Shown piece after piece: positions 18,301 through 33,598 of a DNA stretch of 64,000 nt. The position numbers and the translations under genes are program-made. The stretch comes from an uncultured Cohaesibacter sp. GTDB lineage: Bacteria; Pseudomonadota; Alphaproteobacteria; Rhizobiales; Cohaesibacteraceae. Location: the NCBI RefSeq assembly GCF_963676485.1, contig NZ_OY781114.1:1240001-1304000 (forward strand), given 5' to 3'. Numbering within the stretch: the stretch's first letter is position 1; every line of letters begins with the position of its first letter. Below the pieces are notes generated by a model. The model was not told the DNA's origin. It saw only the letters and a list, made by a program, of their open reading frames with translations, and made no database searches.

Positions 18301-20341
18301 TCTTGGCAATGGCAAAGCCGTCAACAACCAGGAATTTGATTTTCCTGTCGCGAATGGTCTTGCGCATGGCTGAAGGCAGTTCTTTCCAGACTTCAAGCGG
18401 GGAAAGATTGGACTGCAGAATGAAGGTGCCGCCTTCAACAAGTCCGCGCAGCGGATTGCTGTGAGCGAAGACCTTATGGTCTGGCGAGACAACCACTTCC
18501 ACATCTTCCAGATCGGCGTTGGTGATCAGCACCGGCTCCGGAGAGAGCGTGATATAGTAGTTGGTCGGAGCCCCCGACTTTTCCGACCCATATTTCGGGG
18601 CGGACTTGGAATAAAGGTGCAGGGCGTTGGCCAGAATATCCGTGAGCAGCTTGCCGGTGGCAATCGTGCCGTAGCCGCCAACCGAATGGAAACGGATGCG
18701 CAGAGCACCTTCTGGCAGGAGGCTCGGGTTTGGCTTGGTTTCCAGTGCCATCAGTTCGGTTTCAGGATAAGCGTCTTTCAGCTTGGCCTGAAGCTCGGAC
18801 ATGGCCGGACTTGCATCCTTGGAGAAGAACTGGCTGCCCAGATAAACAAATGGCTGGCAAGCGCCGTCCATATTTTCAAAAGCTGCGACCAGATGGCGAG
18901 GCTGCAGGTCATGGGCACCCAAGCCAAAGATGGCGGTCGTCAGTTTTGGCAGTTCCGTGATGGCCGGAACGCCCGGATAGCGTTCGCCTGCACCATTTTC
19001 CATCCCTTTCATCAAAGCTTCCTTGACGAAGGCTGTCAGAGCGGTGTTATCGGAACGCTCAAGAATGGTGACGGCTTTCTTGCCTTTGACAGCTTCCACG
19101 AATTCCGCATCAGGGAATGGCTGCAGCATCTTGATGGATACCACGCCGACTTTTTTGCCCTGACGGCGCAGGTAAGCGGCAACAGCTTCGGCATCATCGG
19201 TCACAGAGCCAAGGCCAACCACAACCGTTTCAGCATCTTCGCATTCAAAGCATTTAACAGGTGCATAGCTGCGACCGGTCAGAGCGGAATATTCATCCAT
19301 GGCTTCGCGCACAAAGCGGGCAACGTCGCGGACGAAGTGGGTGCGATGGTCAACGGAGCCTGCCTGGAAATCTGGCTGGTTCTGAACACCACCGGTCAGG
19401 CCCGGATTGTTGATATCGACCTGAGCAGGGACGCGCTGGCGGGTGCCTTTCTGGAAGGCATTGGTCCACTGGCGATTCCACTGCGTGTGCAGCTCGGCAG
19501 GCAGCATGTCGAGGGTTTTGGCAACAAGGTCGCCAGCATTGTCTTCTTCAACGGCATCTGCATTTTCGTCAAGGAAGGCAACGAGCTTGGCATAAGCGTC
19601 CTGCTCCATATCCGAGCTGTGACGGCCCAGATAACGTTTAAGCTGGAAGACACGACCCTTGGCACCATAAAGCATTTCCTGTGCGACGGTCGGGCACATG
19701 ATACGCTCGGACGGGTCACCGACAAACTCACGCAGCAGATCTTCTTCCGGCATCAGCACTTCGCTCATCATATGCGAGGTGACGAAGCCGTCCATGCCGT
19801 TTGCGACAGGAATCATGGACATCGCGCTGACCTTGTAGGAGATCGCGGCGAGGTCGGCTGCTTCCTGCGGGTTGGAGCCGAACAGGATGGTGTAACCGGA
19901 CGGCAGCAGAGCGTAGATGTCGTCATGACCAGCCATCACGTTCAGTGAATGACGGGAAACGGACCGGGCTGCAACCTGCATGACAAAACCGCCGACTTTC
20001 TTGCCGACGGTGACATAATGCGATTCAAGGCCGTAAAGCACGCCTTGGGAAGATGAAGCGTTGGACACATATTGTCCACCCGTGAGCGCGGCACCAAGCG
20101 CGCCAGACTGGGCTGAATGTTCCCCTTCAGGCTCGAAGAAGAAGGGATGACGACCCCAGACATTAAGTCCGCCGCCAGCTCTGAAAGCTTCGTAGATTTC
20201 GGCAATTTCGGTTGAAGGCGTGATCGGATAGCCGATGACACCACCGCACACCTGTCCCATAACCTGGGCCACGGCGCCGTTACCGTTAATTACCGTTGAA
20301 TTTCCGGGATACGCCGGTGTTTTTGGAAGTTTTTCGTTCAT
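15362..20341 (-). CDS. Very long pyruvate:ferredoxin (2-oxoacid) oxidoreductase
   Basis: This 1659-residue protein exceeds the usual 1170-1200 for single-chain enzymes (NifJ type). It decarboxylates a 2-oxoacid to acyl-CoA and reduces ferredoxin. Domains in order: an alpha domain (IGYPITPSTEIAEIY near 38); a gamma domain (RIRFHSVGGYGTIATGK near 548); two [4Fe-4S] motifs, CTGCLDCSMVCP (near 851) and CTGCLECVDIC (near 982); a TPP domain with GACRGCGE (near 1056), SGDGAAYDIGFGA (near 1237) and NSGVYSNTGG (near 1266). An extra 300 residues follow, including an Ala/Pro-rich linker and a C-terminal ferredoxin (CTNCKAC near 1597). ATG 20341 was chosen (GGTGGAG just before it); an upstream GTG is possible. 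Its gene overlaps that of the fused Nfn protein. Pyruvate is inferred; the true substrate is untested. Confidence 0.9.
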   Translation of the reverse strand: MNEKLPKTPAYPGNSTVINGNGAVAQVMGQVCGGVIGYPITPSTEIAEIYEAFRAGGGLNVWGRHPFFFEPEGEHSAQSGALGAALTGGQYVSNASSSQGVLYGLESHYVTVGKKVGGFVMQVAARSVSRHSLNVMAGHDDIYALLPSGYTILFGSNPQEAADLAAISYKVSAMSMIPVANGMDGFVTSHMMSEVLMPEEDLLREFVGDPSERIMCPTVAQEMLYGAKGRVFQLKRYLGRHSSDMEQDAYAKLVAFLDENADAVEEDNAGDLVAKTLDMLPAELHTQWNRQWTNAFQKGTRQRVPAQVDINNPGLTGGVQNQPDFQAGSVDHRTHFVRDVARFVREAMDEYSALTGRSYAPVKCFECEDAETVVVGLGSVTDDAEAVAAYLRRQGKKVGVVSIKMLQPFPDAEFVEAVKGKKAVTILERSDNTALTAFVKEALMKGMENGAGERYPGVPAITELPKLTTAIFGLGAHDLQPRHLVAAFENMDGACQPFVYLGSQFFSKDASPAMSELQAKLKDAYPETELMALETKPNPSLLPEGALRIRFHSVGGYGTIATGKLLTDILANALHLYSKSAPKYGSEKSGAPTNYYITLSPEPVLITNADLEDVEVVVSPDHKVFAHSNPLRGLVEGGTFILQSNLSPLEVWKELPSAMRKTIRDRKIKFLVVDGFAIAKKHAPVAALQTRMMGIAFIGAVCGHVERVTEGADREAVIEKIRSQISYKFGTKGEAVVEGNMAVIRDGVEETAVVDYSAPDFVEVDAAGDPVPEFSPSISSNMCRIASESSPEGLFDTAYYEETVAAPFRAGEIGEAPVLPGSGMFMPAGSAAAKDKGLFRREVPVFDPEKCTGCLDCSMVCPDAAIPPSVFDIDALLMAAAKDIDMPEKQRDVIREYVRSVGEAVRRKYNALDDAPSFAKLVAEAVNELYVESAVVKGNLERIVEAVSVLPVAKTRPFFDAMEAEHTGQGGLFAVAIDPWKCTGCLECVDICGPGALVATDQDAGLLHDLQSKFNFLSKTPNTPARFVEPAFEDDNEIKRMMLDRANYYSTTGGHGACRGCGEVTAIRQVVSATHAIHDRRQKSHVRELEELVNGLTLKLEEVKGDSEREARISGALKTLEKRLFMLEGGPTGNGQSPLVVANATGCSSVYASTFPFNPYNDPWVNSLFHDGPAVIKGIFEGTTANAAVDFKAMRLAKLELANAYDPATDGAYLNNFEWHNFSSAERDLLPTFMNISGDGAAYDIGFGALSRLLASNTPVKVMVLNSGVYSNTGGQASTASLSGQDSDLARFGKANPGKLEDRKELGLIASFHPNVFVVQSATSFPGHFLKNVMAYLKHSSSPALLDVYTPCQGEHGIADDAANRRSKLAVEARVSPLFVHDPKAGETLAERFNIEGNPALDQDWAMQTISYMEDGQLKLMDLPLTPADYAYDETRFKKQFRLIKGEVDAVPLHEYIDMPAVERGRKVPYILKANAKRELVKLEVGAMVVHLVEERRHNWRTLQHLAGQTAAKLDAAHSKELAAMEQKYKEALESRELSMDSIAAGMAEMASMSASPAVLGLGGTASAAAANGASQAAPAAAGASLPHIHEEDVSLCTNCKACYQDVPELFELTKVVENGAVMEVAHTIPGALEQVEVTPDLKSRIMKVAAKCNAEIVR

Positions 20342-21506
20342 ATTCTCCACCCAATTACAACAGACCGGTTGTTGGTAGTCTCAGCCCGTCGAAATGAAAT
20401 AAAGTGCTCATAGAATTGCCTGCAACCAAAGCCCAGTGGCAAAGGCGGTCACCCCAGGTCCTCAGATACCTTCAGCTGTCAGAAGCAGTCGCGTGGTCTA
20501 GATGGTCATGTGAGCCACTCAAAAGCCCCGGAAATGCATGGCCCCATGGCCATAACTCCCGATACTTTAGTGTTATAATCGTTAGTCTATCCAATGGCTT
20601 TCGGCGTTGATTTGCATCAACACAGCCTCTTGGCCGCAGGACTCCACCGCATGATGATACAATTTCTAGCGCGATTAGAGCTGTTCAAGAAGGTGGCTTT
20701 AGAGACTGTTTTTAAAGTGTTTTTCTCCAGCAAACCAAGGCAAGTAAAGAGGCATGGATACACCTTAGGATTAGGTAGGAAGGGTTTTTCTCGACATATT
20801 TGCTAATAAGACGAAAGAATAAAACAGGTCTTTCGCAATCCACTACACTGCAATTCTATCAGCTGCCGCCCTCGCCCTCCGGCACCCTTTGGCTGGTCGG
20901 ATGCAAGGGTGACCCCTTCCATTTTAGCCCACCTGAGATTTTCTAGGTCTTTGGGCGGATCTTTTCACGCGGCGAAATCCGGTATTTGGGTAAAAATCGA
21001 ATGCGCTAGAGGAGAGTAGGGAACATGATAATCCCACAAGCCGGGGCCAGCTCAGCTCCCAAAACGACTCACTTTAACGCAAGGCCTGACAGTTTCTCGT
21101 AGCGACGCCATATTAAATATGTAAGCGAGTGAAAGATCTTATTTTCGGCCTTATTTGGCAAAACACAGCCCCAGATGATTAACACCAAAGCCTCAGCAGT
21201 TAATATTCACAGACCGCATAACTTTGCATAGCGATTTTTTCTGTTATGCAACTTACCTCTATCCACTTTGGTCTAATGCGCGATTCTCGCCAATTTGCTG
21301 CGAATTCAGGGTTCAACTAGCCTTTGGTCCAAACCTTTTACTGCTTCCAACCCTTTATCTCATTAGAATAAATGAGTAATACTTCCGGCATTGAGGATTT
21401 TGTCATCGGGTGTCCGATCCATAATTTCCGGCGGGTTTTTTACCCGTTCAACCTCAACCTTAACGCAGCGCTCAATCCGGGCGCTGCCTAGCATAGCGGT
21501 AATAAA
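20342..21506. promoter_or_regulatory. Divergent control region between PFOR operon and decarboxylase operon
   Basis: These 1165 bases contain no convincing gene. They hold the promoters of two divergent operons. Seen elements are the FNR box at 20607-20620 and a TATAAC-like -10 hexamer on the minus strand at 20577-20572. A seven-base inverted repeat TTGCATA/TATGCAA (21224-21230, 21245-21251) lies toward the decarboxylase genes. There is also a short AT palindrome, CATATT-A-AATATG, at 21109-21121. The leader of the carboxyltransferase gene has no strong ribosome-binding site. Confidence 0.55.
20607..20620 (-). promoter_or_regulatory. FNR-type box upstream of PFOR
   Basis: TTGAT-TTGC-ATCAA is a perfect match to the FNR/FnrL/Anr consensus TTGAT-N4-ATCAA. 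It is centred about 270 bases upstream of the PFOR start. A TATAAC hexamer on the minus strand about 39 bases nearer the gene could be the -10 element, which is somewhat further than the ideal activator spacing. It implies induction when oxygen is low. Confidence 0.7.
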
Positions 21507-23060
21507 ATGGCGATTTCCAAAACTCTTTCTGATGAGTTGGAGAAACGGCGCAAAATCGCACTGGACGGTGGCGGCGCAAAGAAAGCTGAAGACAGACATG
21601 CCAAAGGGCGTATGACTGCCCGTGAACGCCTCGGGGGTCTTTTCTCTGAAGGTACGTTCCAGGAATTCGGCTTGCATGCGCAACACAATACCCGTTACTT
21701 CGGTATGGCCGATAAATCCATCCCGACGGACGGTGTTATTTGCGGCACAGGCTTTGTCGACGGTCGTCCAGTAGCAGCCTTTTCCCAGGATTTCGGCGTG
21801 GTTGGTGGCTCCTTGGGTGAAATTCACTCCAAGAAAATTTGCGCAGCCCTCGATCATGCTGTGAAAGCAGGCGTACCTGTTGTTGGCTTCAACGATTCAG
21901 GCGGAGCACGTATTCAGGAGGGTGTTGGTGCCCTTTCCGGTTATGGTCAGGTATTCTATCGCAACGTTCAGCTCTCTGGCGTTGTGCCTCAGATTTCTGT
22001 CATCGCAGGCCCTTGCGCCGGTGGTGCAGCCTACAGCCCTGCCCTGACCGACTTCCTTATCATGACCCGCGAAAACGCACAGATGTTCATCTGTGGACCA
22101 GAAGTTATTCGCGCCGTGACCGGTCAGATCACCACAATGGAAGAAATCGGGTCGGCTCAAGCGCATGCTTCCGTATCCGGTAACATTCACTTCATTGCTG
22201 AAAACGACCAGCATGCTGTGCAGATCGTGCACAAGCTGCTTTCGTTCCTGCCATCAAACAACATGATGGATCCGCCGCATCATATCGAGCCGGACCTGAA
22301 AATTGTTGATGACCCTGCATTGGATGAGCTGGTTCCAGCCGATTCCAAGACACCGTTTGATTGCCGTGAGGTTATCAAAAGCCTTGCTGACGACGGTGAT
22401 TTCCTTGAAGTCATGGAACATTTTGCAGCAAACATCGTAATCGGCTTCGGTCGCATTGGCGGCATGGTCGTTGGTTTCGTTTCCAACCAGCCAACCGTTA
22501 AAGCGGGCACGCTGGATATCGATGCCAGTGACAAGGCTGCGCGCTTTGTTCGTTTCTGCAACGTCTATAATATCCCGATTGTTACCCTCGTCGATGTTCC
22601 CGGCTTCCTGCCAGGCGTCGCTGAAGAACGTCGCGGTATTATTCGTCACGGCGCAAAAATGCTCTTCGCATATGCCTCTGCTACTGTTCCCAAGATCACT
22701 GTTATCATGCGTAAAGCCTATGGTGGCGCGTATCTGGCAATGTGCTCGGAAGACATGGGTGCAGACCGCGTTATGGCATGGCCTACGGCCGAGATTGCTG
22801 TGATGGGTGCTGAAGGCGCTGTCAATATCCTTTACCGTAAGGAATTGAAAGAAGCAGAAGACAAGACAGCCAAGGCAAAAGAACTTGCTGATGAATATCG
22901 CAAAGAATTTGCTACTCCTTACTTGTCTGCTGGCAGATTGGCTATCCATGACATCATTCAGCCTCGCGAAACCAAGAGTGCTATTGCCCTCTCGCTTCGT
23001 GGCCTGATGTCCAAACGGGAAACCCGTCCGCCGAAGAAACACGGCAACATTCCACTCTGA
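21507..23060 (+). CDS. mmdA: Biotin-dependent decarboxylase carboxyltransferase subunit (MmdA type)
   Basis: This 517-residue acyl-CoA carboxyltransferase removes the carboxyl group from methylmalonyl-CoA or a similar acyl-CoA and loads it on biotin. It has the N- and C-half crotonase-like folds: PVVGFNDSGGARIQEGVGAL (near 130), GPCAGGAAYSPALTDF (near 171), VDVPGFLPGVAEERRGIIRH (near 365) and RKAYGGAYLAMC (near 405). Length and motifs fit the MmdA/PccB family. The neighbouring membrane subunits make a sodium pump more likely than a carboxylase, and no biotin carboxylase is present. The ATG at 21507 follows an in-frame stop at 21487-21489, so no longer start is possible. Glutaconyl-CoA as substrate cannot be excluded. 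Confidence 0.9.
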   Translation: MAISKTLSDELEKRRKIALDGGGAKKAEDRHAKGRMTARERLGGLFSEGTFQEFGLHAQHNTRYFGMADKSIPTDGVICGTGFVDGRPVAAFSQDFGVVGGSLGEIHSKKICAALDHAVKAGVPVVGFNDSGGARIQEGVGALSGYGQVFYRNVQLSGVVPQISVIAGPCAGGAAYSPALTDFLIMTRENAQMFICGPEVIRAVTGQITTMEEIGSAQAHASVSGNIHFIAENDQHAVQIVHKLLSFLPSNNMMDPPHHIEPDLKIVDDPALDELVPADSKTPFDCREVIKSLADDGDFLEVMEHFAANIVIGFGRIGGMVVGFVSNQPTVKAGTLDIDASDKAARFVRFCNVYNIPIVTLVDVPGFLPGVAEERRGIIRHGAKMLFAYASATVPKITVIMRKAYGGAYLAMCSEDMGADRVMAWPTAEIAVMGAEGAVNILYRKELKEAEDKTAKAKELADEYRKEFATPYLSAGRLAIHDIIQPRETKSAIALSLRGLMSKRETRPPKKHGNIPL

Positions 23061-23076
23061 GCAAAGGATTATCTTG

Positions 23077-23487
23077 ATGCTCGAAAACCTGGAAATCATC
23101 GTAACGGGCTTTTTAGTGGTAATGCTGGCTCTTGCCATCCTGTGGGCAGCTTGTTCTCTGGTCGGAAGCTTTTTTATCCGCCAGGAAAAGAACAACTCTG
23201 GCACAGGGGGCAAGGACCATGCCCCGAAGGTACCGCCGCGTGCGGCGGTCGCCTCCCGGGCAGGCGTACCACCACATCATCTGGCTGCAATCGCAGCAGC
23301 CGTAGCCGCAACTCTTGGGGCAGGATACAAAGTGACACGCGTCGCAGCTCCTCCCCATAAAGTCAGCGAATGGCCACTGGAAGGTCGAATTTCATCATTC
23401 TCGGGACATAACACCCGTAATGGCTGGGCTTCCATGATGCCCTTGAACAGTAGCCAGACCCCCAATTCTCTGAGAGGACAAAAGTAA
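23077..23487 (+). CDS. Small membrane subunit of Na+-pumping decarboxylase (OadG/MmdC-like)
   Basis: This 136-residue protein has one N-terminal membrane helix (ITGFLVVMLALAILWAA-like, residues 7-28) and a basic, Ala/Pro-rich cytoplasmic tail. In Na+ decarboxylases the small subunit anchors the carboxyltransferase to the membrane pump. The C-terminal part resembles trailing segments of such subunits (SEWPLEGRISSF, NGWASM). ATG 23077 with AAAGGA before it is preferred to an upstream TTG. It overlaps the start of the biotin carrier gene by one base and sits 16 bases after mmdA, so it is part of the same operon. Assignment rests largely on size, topology and context. Confidence 0.75.
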   Translation: MLENLEIIVTGFLVVMLALAILWAACSLVGSFFIRQEKNNSGTGGKDHAPKVPPRAAVASRAGVPPHHLAAIAAAVAATLGAGYKVTRVAAPPHKVSEWPLEGRISSFSGHNTRNGWASMMPLNSSQTPNSLRGQK

Positions 23488-23885
23488 TGAAACGCTTGCG
23501 GATCACCGTACAGGGCATCACCTACGATGTAACGGTGGAAGACGAAGATATGGACAACGCTGCTCCGGCTCCGGCTGCGAAACCAGCAGCTCCCGCCCCA
23601 GTAGCCGCCGCTCCAGCTCCTGCCGCTCCGGTCGCTCCGGCTCCTGCAGCAGCTCCTGCCGCTCCAGCTGGTGATGGCGCTGTGCCTAGCCCGCTTTCAG
23701 GGACTGTCATCAGCGTTGACGTTTCTGTTGGTCAGAAAGTTTCAGCTGGCGACACTCTGGTTGTCCTTGAAGCCATGAAGATGAACACGAACATCAGTGC
23801 TCCATCTGATGGCACAGTTACCGCGGTCAATGTGGCAGCCGGTGCTACCGTGACCGAGGGTCAAGTTCTTGTAACCCTTTCATAA
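23487..23885 (+). CDS. Biotin carboxyl carrier protein of the decarboxylase
   Basis: This 132-residue protein carries biotin between the carboxyltransferase and the membrane pump. Residues 25-62 form an Ala/Pro hinge. Residues 65-132 form the biotinyl domain, with the lysine of EAMKM (Lys98) as attachment site and the mirrored half [20 protein letters not shown]. Length and layout match MmdC/GcdC-type carriers. It starts at an ATG overlapping the stop of the preceding gene (TAATG), so the two are translationally coupled. It is strongly supported by sequence. Confidence 0.95.
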
Positions 23886-23902
23886 GGAGGGAGATCCTTC
23901 TC

Positions 23903-25054
23903 ATGGAAGGCACAGCAACTCAGGCCTCCAAGCTTGAACAGATTTGGCATTTGACCGCTTTTGGCGATGTGACCTGGCAAATGATGGTCATGTGGGCGAT
24001 CATTGCTCTGCTGTTCTATCTTGCGATCTACAAAAAATTTGAACCGCTTCTGCTAATCCCTATCGCCTTCGGTGCACTGCTGGCCAACCTGCCCACGCAG
24101 GGCCTGGTCAACTTGCCTCATGGCGGAGAGCCTGGCGGTCTCTACTACTATATTTCCAAAGGCGTTGAGCTGGAAATCTTCCCACCGCTCATCTTCATGG
24201 GCGTTGGGGCTTTGACTGACTTCGGTCCGTTGATCGCCAACCCGCGTACGCTGCTCCTCGGTGCAGCTGCTCAGTTTGGCGTGTTCGCTACCTTCCTTGG
24301 TGCAACCTTCATTGGCTTCCAGCCACATGAGGCTGCTGCCATTGGTATCATTGGTGGTGCTGACGGCCCGACCTCGATCTTCCTTGCCAGCAAGTTGGCT
24401 CCGGATCTGCTGGCTCCAATCGCGGTTGCAGCTTATAGCTACATGGCGCTTGTGCCGTTGATCCAGCCTCCGATCATGCGTGCTCTGACCTCTGAATCAG
24501 AACGCAAAATCAAGATGAAATCCCTGCGTAAAGTGGGTCGCCTTGAAAAGCTCATCTTCGCAGGCATGGTGACGATCCTTGTGATCCTGCTGGTTCCTGC
24601 AGCAGCCGCCCTGATCGGCATGCTGATGCTGGGTAACTTCCTTCGGGAAAGCCTTGAAGCAGAACGCATCACCAAGGCTGCACAGAACGAGGTGGTCAAC
24701 GTCATCACGATCTTCCTGGGTACGTCCGTCGGCATCACGATGACGGCAGAACGCTTCCTGAACTTCGACACCATGAAGATTCTGTCTCTGGGCATCGTCG
24801 CTTTCAGTATTGCTACTGGTTGCGGTATTCTGATGGCCAAACTGATGAACGTGTTCTCGAAGAACAAGATCAACCCGCTTATCGGGTCTGCCGGTGTGTC
24901 TGCGGTGCCTATGGCCGCACGCGTTAGCCAGGTGGAAGGCCAGAAAGCGGATCCAAGCAACTTCCTTCTCATGCATGCCATGGGTCCGAACGTTGCCGGT
25001 GTGATTGGCACAGCAGTGGTAGCAGGCTTCTTCCTCGCCTGGTTCTCACTCTGA
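23903..25054 (+). CDS. Na+-translocating decarboxylase beta subunit (OadB/MmdB/GcdB)
   Basis: This 383-residue polytopic membrane protein transfers carboxybiotin to CO2 release while exporting Na+. It contains the family signature with the essential Asp, [15 protein letters not shown] (near 152), and the later [20 protein letters not shown] region (near 325). At least nine hydrophobic helices can be seen. A strong AAGGAGGGAG ribosome-binding site precedes the ATG. It is last in the four-gene operon and is followed by a terminator. The family is clear; whether the substrate is methylmalonyl-CoA, oxaloacetate or glutaconyl-CoA depends on the MmdA partner, which favours an acyl-CoA. Confidence 0.95.
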
Positions 25055-25082
25055 CCGTCAAGTCTACGATCTGAACAAATTG

Positions 25083-25112
25083 AAGCGCGGGTCTTAAGGC
25101 CTGCGCTTTTTT
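25083..25112 (+). terminator. Terminator of the Na+ decarboxylase operon
   Basis: The stem AAGCGC (25083-25088) with GCGCTT (25103-25108) is followed by a run of T to 25112. It lies about 30 bases after the stop of the beta subunit gene. Confidence 0.8.
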
Positions 25113-25314: not shown

Positions 25315-26283
25315 ATGTCCGATCGCGGGGTCGCCAGCGGTCGCGGGGAGGATTTGTCTGTCGCAAGCCGGCAGACCAGATCCGGGAAAGGTGTTACCGC
25401 ATCTTTTCCCATTCTGACGCGCACCGATTTTTCAAAGTCAACATTCCTCATAGAAATCGAGCATCCAGTCATGGCAAAAGCGGCCAAACCCGGCCAGTTT
25501 GTCATTGTGATGCTGCATGAGCTTGGTGAGCGGATTCCGCTGACCATCGCGGATTTCGACCGGGAAAAGGGAACCATCACGCTTGTGGTACAAGCGGTGG
25601 GCAAATCCACCAGAGAAATGCAACTGCTCTGCAAGCCTGGCCGTGAAATCTACGCCATGCTCGGCCCTCTTGGAATTCCCAGTGACATTTCATCGAAAAC
25701 CAAAAAGGTCATCTGTGTGGGTGGCGGCCTCGGCATCGCGCCCATCTATCCGCAAGCGCGGGCCTTCAAGGAAGCGGGCGCCCATGTGATTGGCGTCTTG
25801 GGCTTCCGTTCCAGCAATCTGATGTTCTGGGAAGAGAAGTTTCGCGCCATCTGCGACGATTTCATCATCTGTACCGATGATGGATCCGCCGGTATTCACG
25901 GGCTTGTCACTCAAGGCATCGAAGCCGCTATCAAACAAAATCCGGATGTTGACGAAGTGGTCGCCATTGGCCCTCCCATCATGATGCGTGCCTGCACGGA
26001 AACCACACGCCCCTACGGCATCAAGACAATGGTGAGCCTCAACCCGATCATGGTCGATGGCACCGGCATGTGTGGTGGTTGCCGCGTGAAGGTGGGCGAA
26101 GCGATCAAGTTCGCCTGCGTGGACGGACCTGATTTTGATGGTCATCAGGTGGACTTTGATGATCTCTTCACCCGATTGCAACGCTACCGGCCCGAAGAGG
26201 CCTCCGCGATGGAACGTTATTCGGATAGTTGCCGCCGACTGGCCCTTGCGCCGGATGCAGCACCCATTGAGGGAGGCAAGTAG
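25315..26283 (+). CDS. NfnA-type ferredoxin-NAD(P)H reductase subunit
   Basis: This 322-residue flavoprotein of the ferredoxin-reductase superfamily corresponds to the NfnA/SudB small subunit. It has the FAD-binding KPGQFVIVML and IPLTIADFD segments (near 60-85), the NAD-binding GGGLGIAPIYPQA (near 138) and a [2Fe-2S] site VDGTGMCGGCRVKV plus FACVDGPDF (near 240-270). About 30 N-terminal residues are a non-conserved, basic leader; a later start is possible, but GGAGGAAA lies ideally before this ATG. It works with the adjacent NfnB, whose ATG follows the stop directly. Dihydroorotate dehydrogenase electron-transfer subunit is a related alternative, disfavoured by context. Confidence 0.87.
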   Translation: MSDRGVASGRGEDLSVASRQTRSGKGVTASFPILTRTDFSKSTFLIEIEHPVMAKAAKPGQFVIVMLHELGERIPLTIADFDREKGTITLVVQAVGKSTREMQLLCKPGREIYAMLGPLGIPSDISSKTKKVICVGGGLGIAPIYPQARAFKEAGAHVIGVLGFRSSNLMFWEEKFRAICDDFIICTDDGSAGIHGLVTQGIEAAIKQNPDVDEVVAIGPPIMMRACTETTRPYGIKTMVSLNPIMVDGTGMCGGCRVKVGEAIKFACVDGPDFDGHQVDFDDLFTRLQRYRPEEASAMERYSDSCRRLALAPDAAPIEGGK

Positions 26284-27792
26284 ATGGCTCGCAAAACCAT
26301 TCGATCCATTCCGCAACAGCGGGCTGACATGCCCGTTCAGGAGCCGGAAATCCGCGCCAAGAACTTTGATGAAGTAACGTTGGGATTTGATCTCGAAAAT
26401 GCCCTTCTGGAATGTGAGCGCTGCCTGATGTGCCCACAACCCGCCTGCATCGAGGGGTGCCCGGTCAAGATTGACATTCCGGGATTCATCTCAAGGATGC
26501 TGGAAAAGGATTTCCGCGGGGCCTATGACCATATGACCGATGCGACCCAGCTTCCCGCTGTTTGCGGCAGGGTCTGCCCACAGGAGGATCAATGCGAAGG
26601 GGTGTGCGCTGTCGGCGCCGGCACCGGCCTTGAACCGGTTGCCATCGGACGGCTTGAACGGTTCCTCGGCGACATGGCAATTAAGGAAGGGTGGCAGAAA
26701 TCCGCACAGATCGAGCCCAACCGCTTCCGGGTTGCCATCGTGGGATCTGGTCCAGCCGGAATGGCTTGTGCGGCGGATCTGGCCAAAGCCGGATGCGCCG
26801 TTACCATTTATGAGGCCTTTCATGTGCCCGGTGGTGTACTGCGCTATGGCATTCCCGAATTTCGCCTGCCCAAGAGCGTTGTGGATGCCGAGATTGCCAA
26901 CCTCAAAGCATTGGGTGTCGATATCCAATGCAACACGCTCGTCGGCCGCCTGTTCACCATTGAACAGATGCTTGATGACATGGGGTATGATGCAGTCTTT
27001 ATCGGCGTTGGTGCCGGTACTCCCCACTTCATGGATATTCCGGGAGAAAATCTCAACGGCGTACTCTCGGCCAACGAGTTGCTGACCCGCTGCAATCTGA
27101 TGCATGCGGGAGACTTCCCCAAATTCGACACCCCGCTTGGCCTTGGCAAGCGCGTGGCCGTGATCGGTTCGGGCAACACAGCCATGGACGCCATGCGCGT
27201 TTCGCTGCGGCTTGGAGCCGAGCAGGTGCATTGCATCTACCGGCGCAGCGAGACCGAGTGCCCGGCCCGCAAGGAAGAGCTGCATCACGCTCAGGAAGAA
27301 GGCATCGAGTTCCACTGGCTGACCAATCCTGTCGAGATTCTTGGTGACGCCAACAACAATGTGCGCGGCATCCGTTGCGTACAGATGGCGTTGGGGGAAC
27401 CCGACAGCTCGGGACGGCGACGCCCTGTGCCGGTTGAAGGCAGCGAATTCGACTTTGAAGCGGATACGGTGGTTTATGCCATCGGCACCTCGCCCAACCC
27501 TATTCTAGGCCAAACCTCGTCGATCGGCCTGAACAAGTGGGGCTATATCGACACGGATGACGATCTTTCAACCTCTCTTGCCGGTGTCTATGCCGGAGGG
27601 GACATCGTCACCGGAGCGGCGACCGTGATCAAGGCGATGGGCGCTGGCCGCAAGGCGGCTGACAGCATTCGCCGCTATCTGGGCCTCAGGGACACCAACG
27701 TAATTTACGAGCCGGAGAAATCCGACTTCGAGAACAGCTTGTTCGGCATCGACCTTGCGGAACATTGCTTTACCAGAATAAGACAAATTTAG
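26284..27792 (+). CDS. NfnB-type NADPH:ferredoxin oxidoreductase large subunit (GltD-like)
   Basis: This 502-residue GltD-family flavoprotein is the large partner of NfnA. The N-terminal Fe-S segment has the full cysteine pattern LECERCLMCPQPACIEGCPV (near 41-60), followed by GRVCPQEDQCEGVC (near 98). Then come the FAD motif VGSGPAGMACAADLA (near 155), a GGVLRYGIPEFRLP motif and the NADPH motif VIGSGNTAMDA (near 295). In the Nfn complex this subunit binds NADPH and the second flavin where electrons bifurcate. It begins immediately after the NfnA stop and is followed by the Kor genes. This suggests that ferredoxin reduced by Kor is recycled here. Confidence 0.9.
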   Translation: MARKTIRSIPQQRADMPVQEPEIRAKNFDEVTLGFDLENALLECERCLMCPQPACIEGCPVKIDIPGFISRMLEKDFRGAYDHMTDATQLPAVCGRVCPQEDQCEGVCAVGAGTGLEPVAIGRLERFLGDMAIKEGWQKSAQIEPNRFRVAIVGSGPAGMACAADLAKAGCAVTIYEAFHVPGGVLRYGIPEFRLPKSVVDAEIANLKALGVDIQCNTLVGRLFTIEQMLDDMGYDAVFIGVGAGTPHFMDIPGENLNGVLSANELLTRCNLMHAGDFPKFDTPLGLGKRVAVIGSGNTAMDAMRVSLRLGAEQVHCIYRRSETECPARKEELHHAQEEGIEFHWLTNPVEILGDANNNVRGIRCVQMALGEPDSSGRRRPVPVEGSEFDFEADTVVYAIGTSPNPILGQTSSIGLNKWGYIDTDDDLSTSLAGVYAGGDIVTGAATVIKAMGAGRKAADSIRRYLGLRDTNVIYEPEKSDFENSLFGIDLAEHCFTRIRQI

Positions 27793-27809
27793 CTGCCGGA
27801 GCCAAGACC

Positions 27810-29759
27810 ATGACGGAATATGGCATGCAGACTTCTCCTAAGGATGCTCCTCCCTGCGAGGAAGCGGTCGCATCGGGGAAGTATCCCGCAAGTGGACCTG
27901 CCGAAGTTATTCAGGAACATATTGTTGAAATCGTAAGTGACTCAGGGGAAGGTGCGCAAAGATGCGGACAGGCCCTTGCCTCAATCGCCGCCCGATCAGG
28001 GCACGGAATCTGGACCGTAGAGATCATCCCTGCCGAGATCCAACCGCCTCATCGCTCCATCGCGGGAGCCAGCGGAAACCGGGTGCGCATGGCCGCGCAT
28101 AAGGTCACCAACGTGGGTGACAAGGCCGATCTCGTGATTGCCTTTAACGAACAGGTGCTTTTGAGCCGCCTGAACGCCAACGAGATCAAGCCCGGGGCTA
28201 CCATTCTCATTGAAGAAATGTGGAAGCGCGACAAGGACCCCGCCGTTGCCCAGAATTATGAGAAGGTAACCGCCGAAGTCCGTGCCAAAGGCTACAAGCT
28301 GTTTGAAATTCCGATGGAGACGGAATGTCACAAATATGTTCCGGATGCGCGCAAGGGCAAGAATATGTTCGTGCTGGGCATTCTCTGCACAATCTACAGC
28401 CTTGATACGGCGCTGGCCGAAGCTCAGGTGCGGCTGACCTTTGCCAAGAAGGATCAGAAGATCGTGGATGCCAACCTCGAGCTTCTGGCAGCCGGACGGG
28501 TTTGGGCGTCGGAAAATCTCTCCATGCGCTACATGATTCCGGCAGCGCCGGTTATCAAACCGCAGATCGTGACCAATGGCAATGCTGCGCTGGCACTGGG
28601 GGTTGTCGCATCGGGCATGGAGGTCTGCTCCATGTATCCGATTACACCGGCCACCTCGGCCTCGCACTATCTCTCGACCATTTTCGAGAAGGTCGGCTGC
28701 GTGGTGCATCAGGCAGAGGATGAAATCTCGGCGGCAACCTTCGCCATCGGGGCGTCCTATGCGGGCAAATGCGCGGTGACCATCACCTCCGGCCCCGGCC
28801 TCTCGCTCAAGCAGGAAGCCATCGGCCTTGCCGTAATGACCGAGATTCCACTGGTTGTTATCGATGTGCAACGCGGTGGGCCTTCCACTGGTCTACCAAC
28901 CAAGGTTGAGCAAGGCGACATGATGGCCGCAATGTTCGGAAGCCATGGCGATGCCCCCAAGGTGGTCATGGCGGTGGATTCCATCGAGGACTGCTTCTAT
29001 TCGGTCATCACAGCACGCAAGATCGCCGAGACCTTCAACATGGTCGTGGTTATCCTCTCGGATGCGGCACTATCAACGGCGCAACAGCCATTTGACCGGC
29101 CGGAATTCAACGCCGACTGGCTCGCCCCTCCGGTCAACCAGTCTGCAGTGCCTGAAGATGCGCACCCCTATGACTGGGACGAACGCACAGGGATTGCGAC
29201 CCGCTTCATCCCCGGCCAGCCAAACGGCATGCATTGCCTGACCGGCCTTGCCCATGACCGGGACAGTCATGTGGCCTATGACCCTCAGATCAACGAGGAA
29301 GGCCTTTTGAACCGCAGCCGCAAACTGGCTGCATTGCAGAAGACGCTGCGTCTGGCGCCCGTCTATGGAGATGAGGAAGGTGATCTGCTGCTCATCGGCT
29401 GGGGCAGTACCCGCGGTGCCATTGAAGAAGCCGTCAAGATCATGCGGGCCAAAGGCCATAAGGTCTCCTCGCTGCATCTGAAATTCATCCAACCGATGGC
29501 GTCTGGGATTGATGCCGTCATGAAGCGCTTTGGCAAGGTCATGACTATCGAGAATAACTGGAATGATCCCCAAAGCGATCCGCTGATCGATCCGTCAAAC
29601 CGGCGCTATTCCCATTTGGCGATGCTGTTGCGCTCGCGCTGGCTGGTGGATGTGGATTGCTGGGGCAACGCCCGCGGCCAGCCGCTCAAGCCAGCTGAAA
29701 TCATAGAGGCTGCAATGGCCAAGCTCGACGACAACCAGCAACCGGCGGGAGGGCAATGA
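27810..29759 (+). CDS. 2-oxoacid:ferredoxin oxidoreductase, fused gamma-alpha subunit (KorA type)
   Basis: This 649-residue protein has a gamma domain (about residues 30-215) followed by an alpha domain. The alpha domain shows ASGMEVCSMYPITPATSASH, TSGPGLSLKQEAIGLAVM and RGGPSTGLPTKVEQGD, all hallmarks of the two-subunit OFOR class. With KorB it converts a 2-oxoacid plus CoA to acyl-CoA and reduced ferredoxin. ATG 27810 (GGAG before it) is preferred; an earlier in-frame codon would overlap nfnB. It lies one base before korB. The substrate (2-oxoglutarate, pyruvate or a branched-chain oxoacid) is not decided by sequence alone. Confidence 0.9.
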   Translation: MTEYGMQTSPKDAPPCEEAVASGKYPASGPAEVIQEHIVEIVSDSGEGAQRCGQALASIAARSGHGIWTVEIIPAEIQPPHRSIAGASGNRVRMAAHKVTNVGDKADLVIAFNEQVLLSRLNANEIKPGATILIEEMWKRDKDPAVAQNYEKVTAEVRAKGYKLFEIPMETECHKYVPDARKGKNMFVLGILCTIYSLDTALAEAQVRLTFAKKDQKIVDANLELLAAGRVWASENLSMRYMIPAAPVIKPQIVTNGNAALALGVVASGMEVCSMYPITPATSASHYLSTIFEKVGCVVHQAEDEISAATFAIGASYAGKCAVTITSGPGLSLKQEAIGLAVMTEIPLVVIDVQRGGPSTGLPTKVEQGDMMAAMFGSHGDAPKVVMAVDSIEDCFYSVITARKIAETFNMVVVILSDAALSTAQQPFDRPEFNADWLAPPVNQSAVPEDAHPYDWDERTGIATRFIPGQPNGMHCLTGLAHDRDSHVAYDPQINEEGLLNRSRKLAALQKTLRLAPVYGDEEGDLLLIGWGSTRGAIEEAVKIMRAKGHKVSSLHLKFIQPMASGIDAVMKRFGKVMTIENNWNDPQSDPLIDPSNRRYSHLAMLLRSRWLVDVDCWGNARGQPLKPAEIIEAAMAKLDDNQQPAGGQ

Positions 29760-29760
29760 G

Positions 29761-30753
29761 ATGACTGCTTCCATGAGCCAATGTCTGATGCAGATGGTGC
29801 AAACCGACTATCAGATTGCCGATTATCAAAGCGATATCACGCCACGCTGGTGCACAGGCTGCGGCGATAACGCCATTCTCACCGCCATGCAGCGTCTGTG
29901 CCGGGATGAACAGCTACCGCCTGAAAAGACCGTTTGTGTCTCGGGCATCGGCTGCGCATCCCGCCTGCCTCATTACATGAATGCCTATGGCTTTCACGGC
30001 ATCCATGGGCGTGCCCTGCCGATTGCCGAGGGGATCAAGATCCGCAGGCCGGATCTCAGTGTCTTCGTTACCACGGGCGATGGGGATTGCTGCTCCATCG
30101 GAGCGGCCCACTGGCTGCATGCGGTGCGCTACAACATGAATATGACGATGCTGCTGCATGACAATAATGTCTATGGCCTCACCAAGAAACAGGCGTCGCC
30201 AACCTCCCCCAAGGGATTGAAGAGCAACACCACCCCCTTCGGGGCCACGCTCAATCCGCTCAATCCCTTGAGCGTCACGCTGGGTATCTCCAACGTTTCC
30301 TTTGTGGCGCAGGTGCCGGACTGGATTCCCGAATTGCTCTATGATGTGCTTTCCAAGGCCTATCACCACAAGGGCTTTTCCTTCATTCGTATCCTGCAGC
30401 GCTGCCCGAACTTCATGAACCATCATTTCGACGCCGCCGTGCAGGACCCTCTGCGAGTGCGGATGCTGACCCATGCGGATGGTTTGCGGCTGAAACCGGA
30501 ATTGTCCCGCATCTACAAGAATCAGGAGACCCACGATCCGCTTGATCTCAATCGGGCGCAGGCTCTTGCCATGCTGGATGAGGAAATTCCGGTGGGCGTG
30601 CTCTATTCCAATCCGGATGTGCCTTGCTATGACGAATTGCGCAAAGGCAAGCGCCCGAGCACGCCACAACTGGTGGAAACTGTTCTCAACGAAGAATTCG
30701 ACAAGGTCGGCATTTGGCCCGAAGGCCAGCAAACGACCTCAACCGGGGAGTGA
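29761..30753 (+). CDS. 2-oxoacid:ferredoxin oxidoreductase beta subunit (KorB type)
   Basis: This 330-residue TPP-binding beta subunit shows PRWCTGCGDNAILTAM (near 30), SGIGCASRLPHYMN (near 61), the TPP/Mg2+ motif TTGDGDCCSIGAAHW (near 103) and the matching Asn loop HDNNVYGLTKKQASPTS (near 137). Two cysteines of the first motif plus another pair with later Cys residues to hold a [4Fe-4S] cluster in this class. It completes a two-subunit OFOR with the upstream KorA. Unlike the next gene product, all TPP residues are intact. Its gene ends six bases before the next ATG. Confidence 0.92.
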   Translation: MTASMSQCLMQMVQTDYQIADYQSDITPRWCTGCGDNAILTAMQRLCRDEQLPPEKTVCVSGIGCASRLPHYMNAYGFHGIHGRALPIAEGIKIRRPDLSVFVTTGDGDCCSIGAAHWLHAVRYNMNMTMLLHDNNVYGLTKKQASPTSPKGLKSNTTPFGATLNPLNPLSVTLGISNVSFVAQVPDWIPELLYDVLSKAYHHKGFSFIRILQRCPNFMNHHFDAAVQDPLRVRMLTHADGLRLKPELSRIYKNQETHDPLDLNRAQALAMLDEEIPVGVLYSNPDVPCYDELRKGKRPSTPQLVETVLNEEFDKVGIWPEGQQTTSTGE

Positions 30754-30759
30754 CCGATC

Positions 30760-32994
30760 ATGCAGGTGGCTCAAATTTCAACGGCCCCTCAGGGTCTGGG
30801 CACTGACGCTTCCATGGAGGATGCCGCATTGACGGGCCTTCGTCCGGCGCTCTTTGCCCGCTACAACGCGCTCGACAGCTTGCGCTATGACTACCCTCTT
30901 GTCCTCATCGAGGGAGAAGAGGTGGAAAAACCGCTTATGCCGCTATGTCACATCGTGGACGAAGCCCTGCGGCTGGTGGCCCCACAAGGACCGGATGGAG
31001 AGGACCTGCGCCAACAGGTTTTGCGCCTTGAACAGCGCATGCGCGACAAGGTGGCAGCGGGAGCGGAAGAAAAGCTCTCCGAGCTTTGGCGTATCAGTGA
31101 AGCGGAGCTCGTGGCAGAATGCGGCCAGTCGGCATTTGGCCCTCTTGATCAGTCTCTGGATAGAGCAAGGCAGGCCATCACTCTGGATGGTCGGGTTATC
31201 GGCTGCACCGAGGCAACACCGGGCAAGGTTCTGGCGCATGTCTGGCAATCCATGCATCTGGCACGGGCCCGCAAGTTCCGCTACAAGGTCGACCGGCTTG
31301 TGCTCCGGCTCAATGACATTCTGAAGTCGGATCATATCAAGTCTGATGAGGCCCATAGCCCTGAAGCCCTAGCCAAATCCATGGGGCTGGATGGCGATAA
31401 ATCCATCGACTTCAGTGCCCTGTCAAACATCCTGCATCGTGCCCGCCCAGAAGACCGACTACCAGCCGACAGGGTGGCCCGCATCAAGCATGTGTTGCAG
31501 GTTCTTCAGACACAGGCCTTCTTCGGACCGGGCCGGGCGACCTATAGCTATCCGGACAAGGCGGTGTGTTATAGCTATGTGTTCAAAAGCTGCACAGATG
31601 CGCTGGATGCCTATCGGGATCGGCTGCCAAGCGTCATTGAGTTCACCAAGGCTCTGGCAATTGCGGAAATGGAAGTGGAGAATAAATATGTTCCCGACTT
31701 GCATGATGCGGTCTTTGCCAGTTTCGATGAGAGCGATCTGACTGAGGAGCAGATGGCCTTCCTGCCACCTGCCATGATCTTCCTCAGAGACGGGGAGACG
31801 GCTTCCTCCGAGATCGCCCGTGCCTATGAAGCACTTGCCTGCGGATTGCCCATCAAGGTGATGATCCAGGTGGATGACATTCTCGGGCCGACATCTCTGG
31901 AACCACCGATCAACTCTTTCGGTGCGGGCACTACACGGCTCGCCTCCATGGCCATGGGCATCAACAATGCCTTTGTGGTTCAGGGCTCCAGCGCGCATAT
32001 GGCCCGCATGCAGGATGATATGGTCCGCGCCATGCATTATGGTGGCCCGGCCATGTTCAGCATCTATTCGGGTGCGACCAAAAGCGTTCCGGGCGTGCCA
32101 GCCTATATTCTGGCAGCGGCAGCAACCGAAGCCCGCCTGTTCCCGAATTTCTCCTACGATCCGTCAGCTGGCGCCGATTTGGCCAGCCGGTTCGATCTGT
32201 CGGCCAATCCCCAGATGGAGAAGGACTGGCCCGACCATGCCCTTCGCTATGAAGACCCGACAGGCGTGCGCAAGGAAGAAACCGTGCGCTTTACGTTCGG
32301 GGATTTCGCTCTGGCGGATACCCGCTACCACCGCTTCTGCGAGGCGGTTGGGCGCAAGAACTGGAGCGGCGATATGGTGCCGTTCGAGGAGTGGTTGGAA
32401 ACATCCGGAGCAAGTGACGATATCAAACGCGCCTATTTACAGGGCGTTGACCGGCAAGACGCCCTGATGCGCATCGTGGTTGATGACAAGATCGTTGTCG
32501 CTGCCCGGCGGTGCAAAGACGCATGGAACCGCTTGCAGGAGCTGGCAGGCATCAACAATTCCCATGTGCTGGCCCAAATGGCCGAGGAACGGCGCAAACG
32601 GGAAGCGCTGCTTGCAGAGCTTTCCAGCGAAGCGGCGGGCCCTGTCGTTGCCGAGCCAGTTGAGCCGGTTGCAGAGACCCCTCAACCACCAGCTGAGCCC
32701 CAGGCTGATTCTCAAGACAATGACGGTGCTACCGCTGAAGTGCTTGAGGATATGCCATGGATCGAAACACCCCGTTGCACAACCTGCAACGAGTGTCGTC
32801 AGATCAATGATCAGTTGTTTGGCTATAATGAAAATATGCAGGCCTTCATCGCAGATCCCGACGCAGGCACCTATCGCCAGTTGGTGGAAGCAGCAGAAGG
32901 CTGTCAGGTCAGCATCATCCATCCGGGCCAACCTCGTAACCCGAGTGAACCGGATCTGGACGATCTGATGGAACGGGCCAAGCCGTTTCTCTAG
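30760..32994 (+). CDS. Uncharacterised TPP-domain-like protein with C-terminal ferredoxin (catalytically degenerate PFOR beta paralogue)
   Basis: This 744-residue protein is not a family I can name. Residues about 290-610 line up with the TPP domain and following extension of the long PFOR in this window: EFTKALAIAEMEVENKY against DFKAMRLAKLELANAY, LPIKVMI against TPVKVMV, and DPSAGADLASRF against DPKAGETLAERF. The TPP motif GDG has become RDG and the NSGVYSN loop has become VDDILGP, so TPP catalysis is unlikely. A Pro/Glu-rich linker (about 625-668) leads to a [4Fe-4S] ferredoxin-like motif CTTCNEC (near 673) with a later Cys near 715. Residues 1-285 match nothing recognised. It ends the Nfn-Kor operon, six bases after korB. 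An electron-transfer adaptor for KorAB is the best guess. Confidence 0.7.
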   Translation: MQVAQISTAPQGLGTDASMEDAALTGLRPALFARYNALDSLRYDYPLVLIEGEEVEKPLMPLCHIVDEALRLVAPQGPDGEDLRQQVLRLEQRMRDKVAAGAEEKLSELWRISEAELVAECGQSAFGPLDQSLDRARQAITLDGRVIGCTEATPGKVLAHVWQSMHLARARKFRYKVDRLVLRLNDILKSDHIKSDEAHSPEALAKSMGLDGDKSIDFSALSNILHRARPEDRLPADRVARIKHVLQVLQTQAFFGPGRATYSYPDKAVCYSYVFKSCTDALDAYRDRLPSVIEFTKALAIAEMEVENKYVPDLHDAVFASFDESDLTEEQMAFLPPAMIFLRDGETASSEIARAYEALACGLPIKVMIQVDDILGPTSLEPPINSFGAGTTRLASMAMGINNAFVVQGSSAHMARMQDDMVRAMHYGGPAMFSIYSGATKSVPGVPAYILAAAATEARLFPNFSYDPSAGADLASRFDLSANPQMEKDWPDHALRYEDPTGVRKEETVRFTFGDFALADTRYHRFCEAVGRKNWSGDMVPFEEWLETSGASDDIKRAYLQGVDRQDALMRIVVDDKIVVAARRCKDAWNRLQELAGINNSHVLAQMAEERRKREALLAELSSEAAGPVVAEPVEPVAETPQPPAEPQADSQDNDGATAEVLEDMPWIETPRCTTCNECRQINDQLFGYNENMQAFIADPDAGTYRQLVEAAEGCQVSIIHPGQPRNPSEPDLDDLMERAKPFL

Positions 32995-33100: not shown

Positions 33101-33598
33101 CTACATGAGCAGGCTGTTGCCGCGCCAATCCTTAGAGGGTCGGCGGATATGGGCATCGGTCAACACATTGACAAACCGCTCCAGATCGCACGAATTGCTG
33201 TCTGACCCATCATCATATCTGACAGAATGCATGGTGATGGTCGACACATCGCCGATCAGGTTCAGACCAAAGCGCGCATCAAGATCAAGATGCCTGAAAG
33301 CCATCTCGAGCCGTAGCGTGGGTGGTGTGGACCAATCCAGTTGCGTCGTGGCTTCGCCGCGATAGAAAAGGGTATTGGCCTTGAGGAATAATTCCGAGGA
33401 CGATGCAACGATATCGCTGATATTGGCATGAGAATCCGTAAAAACATACGAAATCAAATGCGCTGCATCGACCAGTCTAAGCTCGGTGATGACATCTTTC
33501 ATCGCCCAAAGCATGGCATGCTCATAAACGTCTTTGCAATCAGCTGTTGCAAGAGGCTTTCGACTAATCATGGTCGATTTCCGGGAAGCTTTGTTCAT
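33101..33598 (-). CDS. Hypothetical protein at end of the motA-flhB operon
   Basis: This 165-residue protein is of unknown function. It has no membrane segment or known motif. It is acidic with alternating hydrophobic segments and is probably a folded soluble protein. Its ATG lies two bases after the flhB stop, so it is probably translated with the flagellar switch and export genes. A second ATG (33571) would give a shorter form. Composition resembles its neighbours. A role in flagellar assembly is suggested only by position. Confidence 0.6.
   Translation of the reverse strand: MNKASRKSTMISRKPLATADCKDVYEHAMLWAMKDVITELRLVDAAHLISYVFTDSHANISDIVASSSELFLKANTLFYRGEATTQLDWSTPPTLRLEMAFRHLDLDARFGLNLIGDVSTITMHSVRYDDGSDSNSCDLERFVNVLTDAHIRRPSKDWRGNSLLM

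Follow-up and report, generated by a model that had tools for sequence, protein, structure and literature searches.

Among the described systems closest to the locus analysed here are Nfn, which uses free ferredoxin, and the 2-oxoglutarate:NADP+ oxidoreductase of Azoarcus, in which KorAB is coupled to a flavoprotein; we know of no dead half of a pyruvate:ferredoxin oxidoreductase (PFOR) beside the former or in the latter. The locus lies in a 64 000-nucleotide stretch of DNA from an uncultured Cohaesibacter sp. (contig NZ_OY781114.1, positions 1,240,001 to 1,304,000; hereafter the window) and consists of five forward-strand genes, NfnA-NfnB-KorA-KorB-X, in which KorAB stands with NfnAB much as it is coupled to the Azoarcus flavoprotein, and of which the last encodes a protein of 744 amino acids, here called X (30760..32994). 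Two-subunit 2-oxoacid:ferredoxin oxidoreductases (OFORs) of the KorAB type, such as StOFOR, are the kind encoded directly upstream of X; according to their description (PMC5020499), they have no domain V and carry a single cluster close to a large pocket, in which an external ferredoxin was placed by modelling; they work with that ferredoxin and no third subunit, whereas this locus adds X. In a second report, korAB with bzdV is named as a ferredoxin-regenerating system (PMC5736913). Long PFORs encoded beside Rnf genes have the same order of parts as X, namely a domain V region, domain VI, an extension, a linker and a ferredoxin. They also possess domains I–IV and intact thiamine pyrophosphate (TPP) and cluster sites, whereas X retains only the ferredoxin.

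X was characterised from its open reading frame (ORF), BLASTP searches, alignments and profile–profile comparison. The frame is open throughout and starts 6 bp past the stop codon of KorB. In a single BLASTP comparison, residues 221–630 matched the TPP domain and extension of a PFOR-like protein encoded elsewhere in the window (114 of 475 columns identical, 24%; E 1e-24), an alignment that a preliminary description of this DNA had reported for residues of about 290–610. A stronger match was found, in a small database, with the 1651-residue PFOR of genome G033 (26% over about 650 columns, X 143–743 against 1009–1650), and hhalign comparison of five X proteins with four PFOR C-terminal halves gave a probability of 100 over 583 columns, from X residue 143 to the end, which places X among the homologues of domain VI, with a fold predicted from sequence. 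Within the N-terminal part of PFOR, the best place for the first 140 residues was the domain V region directly upstream of domain VI; residues 27–142 were collinear with that region, with hhalign probabilities, obtained without a shuffle control, of 80.8 against the region and 38.5 against the whole N-terminal part, and homology to domain V probably extends to them. X in all likelihood represents a complete C-terminal PFOR half and not the lone TPP domain, equipped with a ferredoxin of its own, that had been supposed at the outset. Since it is collinear with the whole of that half, terminal ferredoxin included, the ferredoxin most likely came along with it. The long proteins are termed PFORs by homology: three Rnf-linked ones and that of the window scored about 390–421 bits against a cut-off of 911 for the NCBIfam pyruvate:ferredoxin oxidoreductase family, and their substrate is therefore not settled.

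The sites of X were compared over eight X rows and 19 PFOR rows (three of them split PFORs without ferredoxin), leaving out near-duplicate rows from the genus and a truncated copy from genome G236; two further alignments held 12 rows of X from the genus and nine diverse rows. Residues 27–142 (30838..31185) form a probable remnant of the domain V region, in which the helical part is retained and both 4Fe-4S motifs are gone, none of the eight cysteines that hold two [4Fe-4S] clusters in domain V having an aligned cysteine in any X row. Domain VI, which in PFOR carries the TPP site and the proximal [4Fe-4S] site, is degenerate in X (residues 143–440, 31186..32079, delimited by BLASTP, hhalign and alignment). 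In the account of OFORs, Mg is bound by the GDG motif and an Asn, and TPP is activated by a Glu from the alpha subunit (PMC5020499). GDG stood at its aligned place in 19 of 19 PFOR rows and in no X row; X has RDG there (31786..31794) in all 12 genus rows and in genome G188, RLR in G093 and CGQ in G156, and in G093 a GDG tripeptide lies three residues beyond the aligned place. The second Mg/TPP loop is replaced by QxDD[IV]L in all eight X rows (QVDDILGPT in the window, 31867..31893), so that the two substitutions initially read from the sequence, RDG and VDDILGP, are as claimed. Q370, D372, D373 and L375 of this segment are invariant in all nine diverse rows, and these four residues at the former Mg/TPP loop could bind a metal or a partner. 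Among the cysteines of the proximal cluster, the second, C149 (31204..31206), is the only one present in eight of eight X rows; that of the NATGC motif (C270) occurs in five, all from the genus, and the other two in none, the Tyr-x-x-Cys motif with the fourth cysteine reading YSGA, or FSGA in G156 (32065..32076).

The remainder of X comprises the extension common to long PFORs (residues 441–610, 32080..32589, delimited by BLASTP and hhalign), a linker rich in Pro, Ala and Glu (residues 611–662, 32590..32745) and a single-cluster ferredoxin (residues 663–744, 32746..32991). As first noticed, a CTTCNEC motif follows the linker; CxxCxxC was present in eight of eight X rows, and its three cysteines (C673, C676 and C679), together with the fourth, C715, were invariant in the 12 genus rows and in the nine diverse rows. 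PFOR domains I–IV, with the TPP-activating Glu, are absent from X, in which the Pfam scan found neither a POR_N nor a POR domain, the match being confined to the C-terminal PFOR half. It is very unlikely, judged from these sites, that X acts alone as a TPP enzyme of the OFOR kind.

Fer4_13 was the only Pfam family to match the X of the window up to an E-value of 1 (25.3 bits; cut-off 24.5); the X proteins of G188 and G093 also passed this cut-off, and that of G156 fell below it at 21.7 bits. The NCBIfam scan of X returned a single, meaningless match (E 0.16; 10.1 bits against 700). Searched singly against PDB sequences, X gave nothing except a ferredoxin (E 0.28), and its profile matched a ferredoxin (6.7e-5), a PFOR that we take to be from Moorella (0.12) and an unrelated hydrolase (0.82). 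No description of an X-like protein was found in a literature search covering open-licence papers. X appears to be a new accessory protein, catalytically dead, within the OFOR superfamily that lies outside the Pfam and NCBIfam families except for Fer4_13, in agreement with the earlier view that no known family has this architecture.

Between the genome of the window and six congeners, the ratio of nonsynonymous to synonymous substitution rates (dN/dS) of X was 0.074–0.104, and 0.127 against a more distant seventh (dS 2.3). By region, the six comparisons gave 0.050–0.071 for the degenerate domain VI (0.119 in the seventh), 0.067–0.153 for the extension and 0.031–0.064 for the ferredoxin; constraint was lowest in the linker (0.15–0.30, undefined in the seventh). 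All 17 copies of X not cut by a contig end had frames free of stops. Purifying selection argues for a function of X, and since the dead domain is constrained about as much as the ferredoxin, the dead domain itself must be presumed to have a job.

Genome searches for X, in which only the top candidates of a first pass were scored, detected it in 14 of 18 genomes of the genus, that of the window included, and not in G005 (64% complete) or in G009, G011 and G017 (90–99%). The named relatives comprise Cohaesibacter marisflavi (90%) and C. haloalkalitolerans (81%). Across the class, 5 of 289 genomes, counting that of the window, contained X, and a profile search of 385 class genomes, of the kind that the preliminary description had proposed for finding a korAB-adjacent gene in alphaproteobacteria, returned the same five. 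The profile matched 48 of 299 phylum genomes, where besides the X of the window the frames among the matches listed measured 1651–1698 or 142–592 residues; three of the shorter ones that were examined (L041, L043 and L044) proved to be PFOR halves that lack a ferredoxin and have their TPP motifs intact. Among viral contigs, 74 pattern matches were obtained but no relative, and two plasmid records matched X, both through long PFORs.

KorA followed the same distribution. It was found at an identity of at least 81% in the same 14 genus genomes and was missing from the same four, and at least 60% identity occurred in exactly the five X-bearing genomes of the 289 of the class, where the next long match was at 37% and one stretch of 53 residues reached 45% (E 3.2e-4). 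KorA matches of a more distant kind occurred in a further 99 of these genomes, none of which matched X, and in 398 phylum genomes no other KorA match exceeded 39% among the matches listed. In 13 of the 14 genus genomes X and KorA share a strand and X starts 1004–1077 bp beyond KorA, a gap that leaves room for KorB (in four of the 13 the match begins some residues inside X); the exception is G016, whose KorB is divided between two contigs. A PFOR-type frame was matched by X in the same 14 genus genomes (a frame of 446 residues in G016) and in none of G005, G009, G011 and G017. No PFOR match to X was found in the four X-bearing genomes outside the genus, with two or three candidates scored per genome; two of these, G093 with 18 candidates scored and G156 with all three, likewise gave none.

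Eight of the 18 X loci were read for gene content (the window, L021, L022, G188, G093, G156, G236 and G016). NfnB-KorA-KorB-X was present in all eight and NfnA in seven; the G236 contig ends inside NfnB and inside X, and the G016 locus lies on two contigs. In the window, NfnA, the small Nfn subunit (25315..26283; PDB 5jca_S, E 1.2e-92), and NfnB, the large one (26284..27792; PDB 4ylf_B, E 1.1e-169), match solved NfnI structures and are assigned as NfnAB by this homology. KorA (27765..29759), with POR and POR_N domains in the Pfam and NCBIfam scans, and KorB (29761..30753) match solved two-subunit OFORs (both PDB 6n2n, E 2.2e-79 and 4.9e-51); the start codon listed for KorA lies within NfnB, and the true start may be another. 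KorB, directly upstream of X, has GDG and the Asn loop NNVYGLT and is an intact TPP subunit as originally described, and together the two proteins have the features of a two-subunit OFOR. All four genes are on the same strand as X, which closes the run, again as first stated.

These observations suggest a role for X as a non-catalytic subunit that wires KorAB to NfnAB by means of a tethered ferredoxin, a reading that we regard as evenly poised between right and wrong. X would be derived from the C-terminal half of a long PFOR that lost its TPP site and three internal cluster sites and retained the terminal ferredoxin on its linker. Its degenerate body would dock on KorAB or NfnAB, and the tethered [4Fe-4S] cluster would take single electrons from the exposed cluster of KorB, at the pocket left open in two-subunit OFORs for want of domain V, and pass them to the [4Fe-4S] chain of NfnB. 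Oxidation of a 2-oxoacid would thereby be coupled to reduction of NADP+, perhaps NAD+, or the reverse; docking, electron path, direction and acceptor are our inferences. The substrate may be predicted to be probably 2-oxoglutarate. Replacement by KorAB of a missing 2-oxoglutarate dehydrogenase was also considered and is unlikely because the genome has an E1 gene above the family cut-off.

The wiring role is favoured by the homology to the PFOR C-terminal half, the site-by-site loss, the retention of the ferredoxin cysteines, the co-occurrence with KorA and the gene order; the picture in the preliminary description of a dead TPP-domain homologue with a ferredoxin, tied to KorAB-NfnAB, holds on the same grounds. 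It is also favoured because NfnAB has matches among solved NfnI structures and KorAB among those of two-subunit OFORs, because the StOFOR pocket was modelled with an external ferredoxin in it (PMC5020499), and because, in the four genomes with X outside the genus, none of the candidates scored was a PFOR matching X. Three points weigh against it: X has evolved more quickly than its four partner genes (overall dN/dS 0.082 and 0.103 against 0.015–0.050, with the same pair of species); the structure predicted by AlphaFold from a four-row alignment was a poor model (pLDDT, the predicted local confidence score, 36.1); and a like terminal ferredoxin occurs in long PFORs beside Rnf, not Nfn, and is thus not Nfn-specific. 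A more far-reaching proposal, which we consider rather doubtful, is that KorAB and NfnAB are joined through X into a single 2-oxoacid:NAD(P)+ oxidoreductase, possibly electron-confurcating or bifurcating. It would be independent of free ferredoxin because a PFOR half, deprived of TPP and of three internal clusters, has been retained solely to carry the tethered one, and the bacterium Gemmatirosa may hold an independent or more reduced version. If the wiring role is correct, the OFOR superfamily would include X as a pseudoenzyme subunit, a natural case of half an enzyme recycled as an electron wire, and X would also account for the direct feeding of a flavoprotein by a two-subunit OFOR that has no ferredoxin domain of its own. 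With five genes and named Cohaesibacter strains, the locus would then offer a compact system for asking whether low-potential electrons are channelled or shared through the ferredoxin pool.

The constraint on the dead domain, about equal to that on the ferredoxin, would fit a structural or regulatory pseudo-subunit, in which dead domain VI replaces a KorB-like contact in the assembly or shields the enzyme from oxygen and the ferredoxin is a redox sensor or a structural element. In the OFOR description, the dimer interface is formed by domains I, II and VI, and PFOR domain VII reaches over the partner subunit (PMC5020499), which is consistent with such a part. However, none of the four cluster cysteines has been lost, and no portion is better preserved than the ferredoxin (X of the window and of G156 are identical at 50 of 82 positions there against 51 of 148 in the domain VI core). 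Both points suit a redox centre that works, and we consider this explanation unlikely. X might instead be a tethered ferredoxin through which KorAB serves another acceptor, such as Rnf, nitrogenase or another reductase, with NfnAB working separately. Long PFORs with a similar ferredoxin tail adjoin Rnf genes in four of four loci examined, and a frame of 499 residues in the genome of the window matches RnfC in part (38%, E 1.5e-34). The RnfC matches in the four X-bearing genomes outside the genus were weak, though (E 1.9e-8 or weaker), and NfnB adjoins KorA in every locus read, so that we judge service to another acceptor still less probable. Rnf as a general partner was rejected, a strong RnfC match being found in the genome of the window only, among six searched.

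The invariant QxDD[IV]L segment could alternatively reflect a new catalytic or metal-binding activity, with the segment holding a metal or other cofactor. Besides the invariance of its four residues in nine diverse rows, D372 is aligned with a Thr/Ser of the PFOR loop, presumably a metal ligand, and a GDG in G093 lies three residues away from the aligned place. Against this, neither G093 nor G156 has the Asp of GDG where the alignment would put it, X lacks domain I and with it the activating Glu, and matches to other families are wanting, which leaves a new activity improbable. The want of family matches other than the marginal Fer4_13 might suggest a pseudogene in decay, or a frame that is open by chance, but this is refuted by dN/dS values of 0.074–0.127 over seven comparisons and by the 17 uncut, stop-free copies.

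The wiring role does not depend on which PFOR was the parent of X, and its standing is unaffected by that question. In a tree of domain VI and the extension, eight X rows and 19 PFOR rows fell on opposite sides of a branch with 100/100 support; since X stands apart from all PFOR rows on a long stem (0.99), the tree does not single out a parent lineage. Identities in the domain VI core were 32–39 of 148 to four Rnf-linked PFORs and 32 of 148 to the PFOR of the window, values too alike to tell the two kinds of parent apart, and the extension was about equally identical to both. The ferredoxin was identical at 38/82, 34/82, 44/81 and 34/82 positions to the four Rnf-linked proteins and at 12/59 to that of the window. 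X thus probably came from the Rnf-linked kind of long PFOR, as judged by its ferredoxin. Its origin by duplication from the window PFOR, which the preliminary description had implied, is leaned against: the tail is nearer to the Rnf-linked proteins, and core and extension are indifferent. The window PFOR-like protein (1662 residues, 15362–20350, reverse strand) has a C-terminal single-cluster ferredoxin motif of its own, CTNCKAC, unlike that of X.

The RnfC alongside passed its family cut-off in all four Rnf-linked PFOR loci (G033, G576 and plasmids of Persicobacter and Gemmatirosa), and KorAB adjoins the long PFOR in one of the four, that of Gemmatirosa. Its KorA was the closest found outside the alphaproteobacterial set (55%), and the order there is KorA, KorB (51%), an ORF of 344 residues, an RnfB-like gene, an intact long PFOR with ferredoxin, RnfC and RnfD. 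Since a PFOR with an X-like tail and a KorAB of the same clade share this neighbourhood, it would be a plausible source arrangement. The 344-residue ORF (L104 16152-17186, reverse strand, plasmid NZ_CP007129.1) is weakly collinear with PFOR domain VI and has no ferredoxin. Against PFOR C-terminal halves it reached an hhalign score of 31.6 (at most 18.8 in 30 shuffles), but at a probability of 11%; against X the score was 24.0 and the probability 1.6%. It matched no Pfam family at its cut-off and had no relative in other plasmid records. It may be a second, more degraded domain VI fragment tied to KorAB, and we treat it as a lead and not as a member of the X family.

Upstream of NfnA in the window (21507-25054, forward strand) are Na+-pump decarboxylase genes for a carboxyltransferase, a small subunit, a biotin carrier and a Na+-pump beta subunit; they were also present in L021 and L022, and no match to them was found upstream of NfnA in G188, G093 and G156, over about 1.3, 5.3 and 4.3 kb, respectively. 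A terminator-like stem between the Na+-pump gene and NfnA (25082..25109, forward strand) is a consensus match only, and the scan returned four such sites against a shuffle mean of 7.6, fewer than in the shuffles. In G093, X is followed downstream, on the same strand, by a second OFOR-like set (L028 13227-17846, forward strand), with ORFs matching KorA/PFOR, KorB/PFOR and NfnB, preceded by a 245-residue ORF that by eye is gamma-subunit-like. In the window, an ORF of 165 residues (33101-33598, reverse strand) separates X from the next flagellar gene and is 89% and 62% identical in L021 and L022, respectively.

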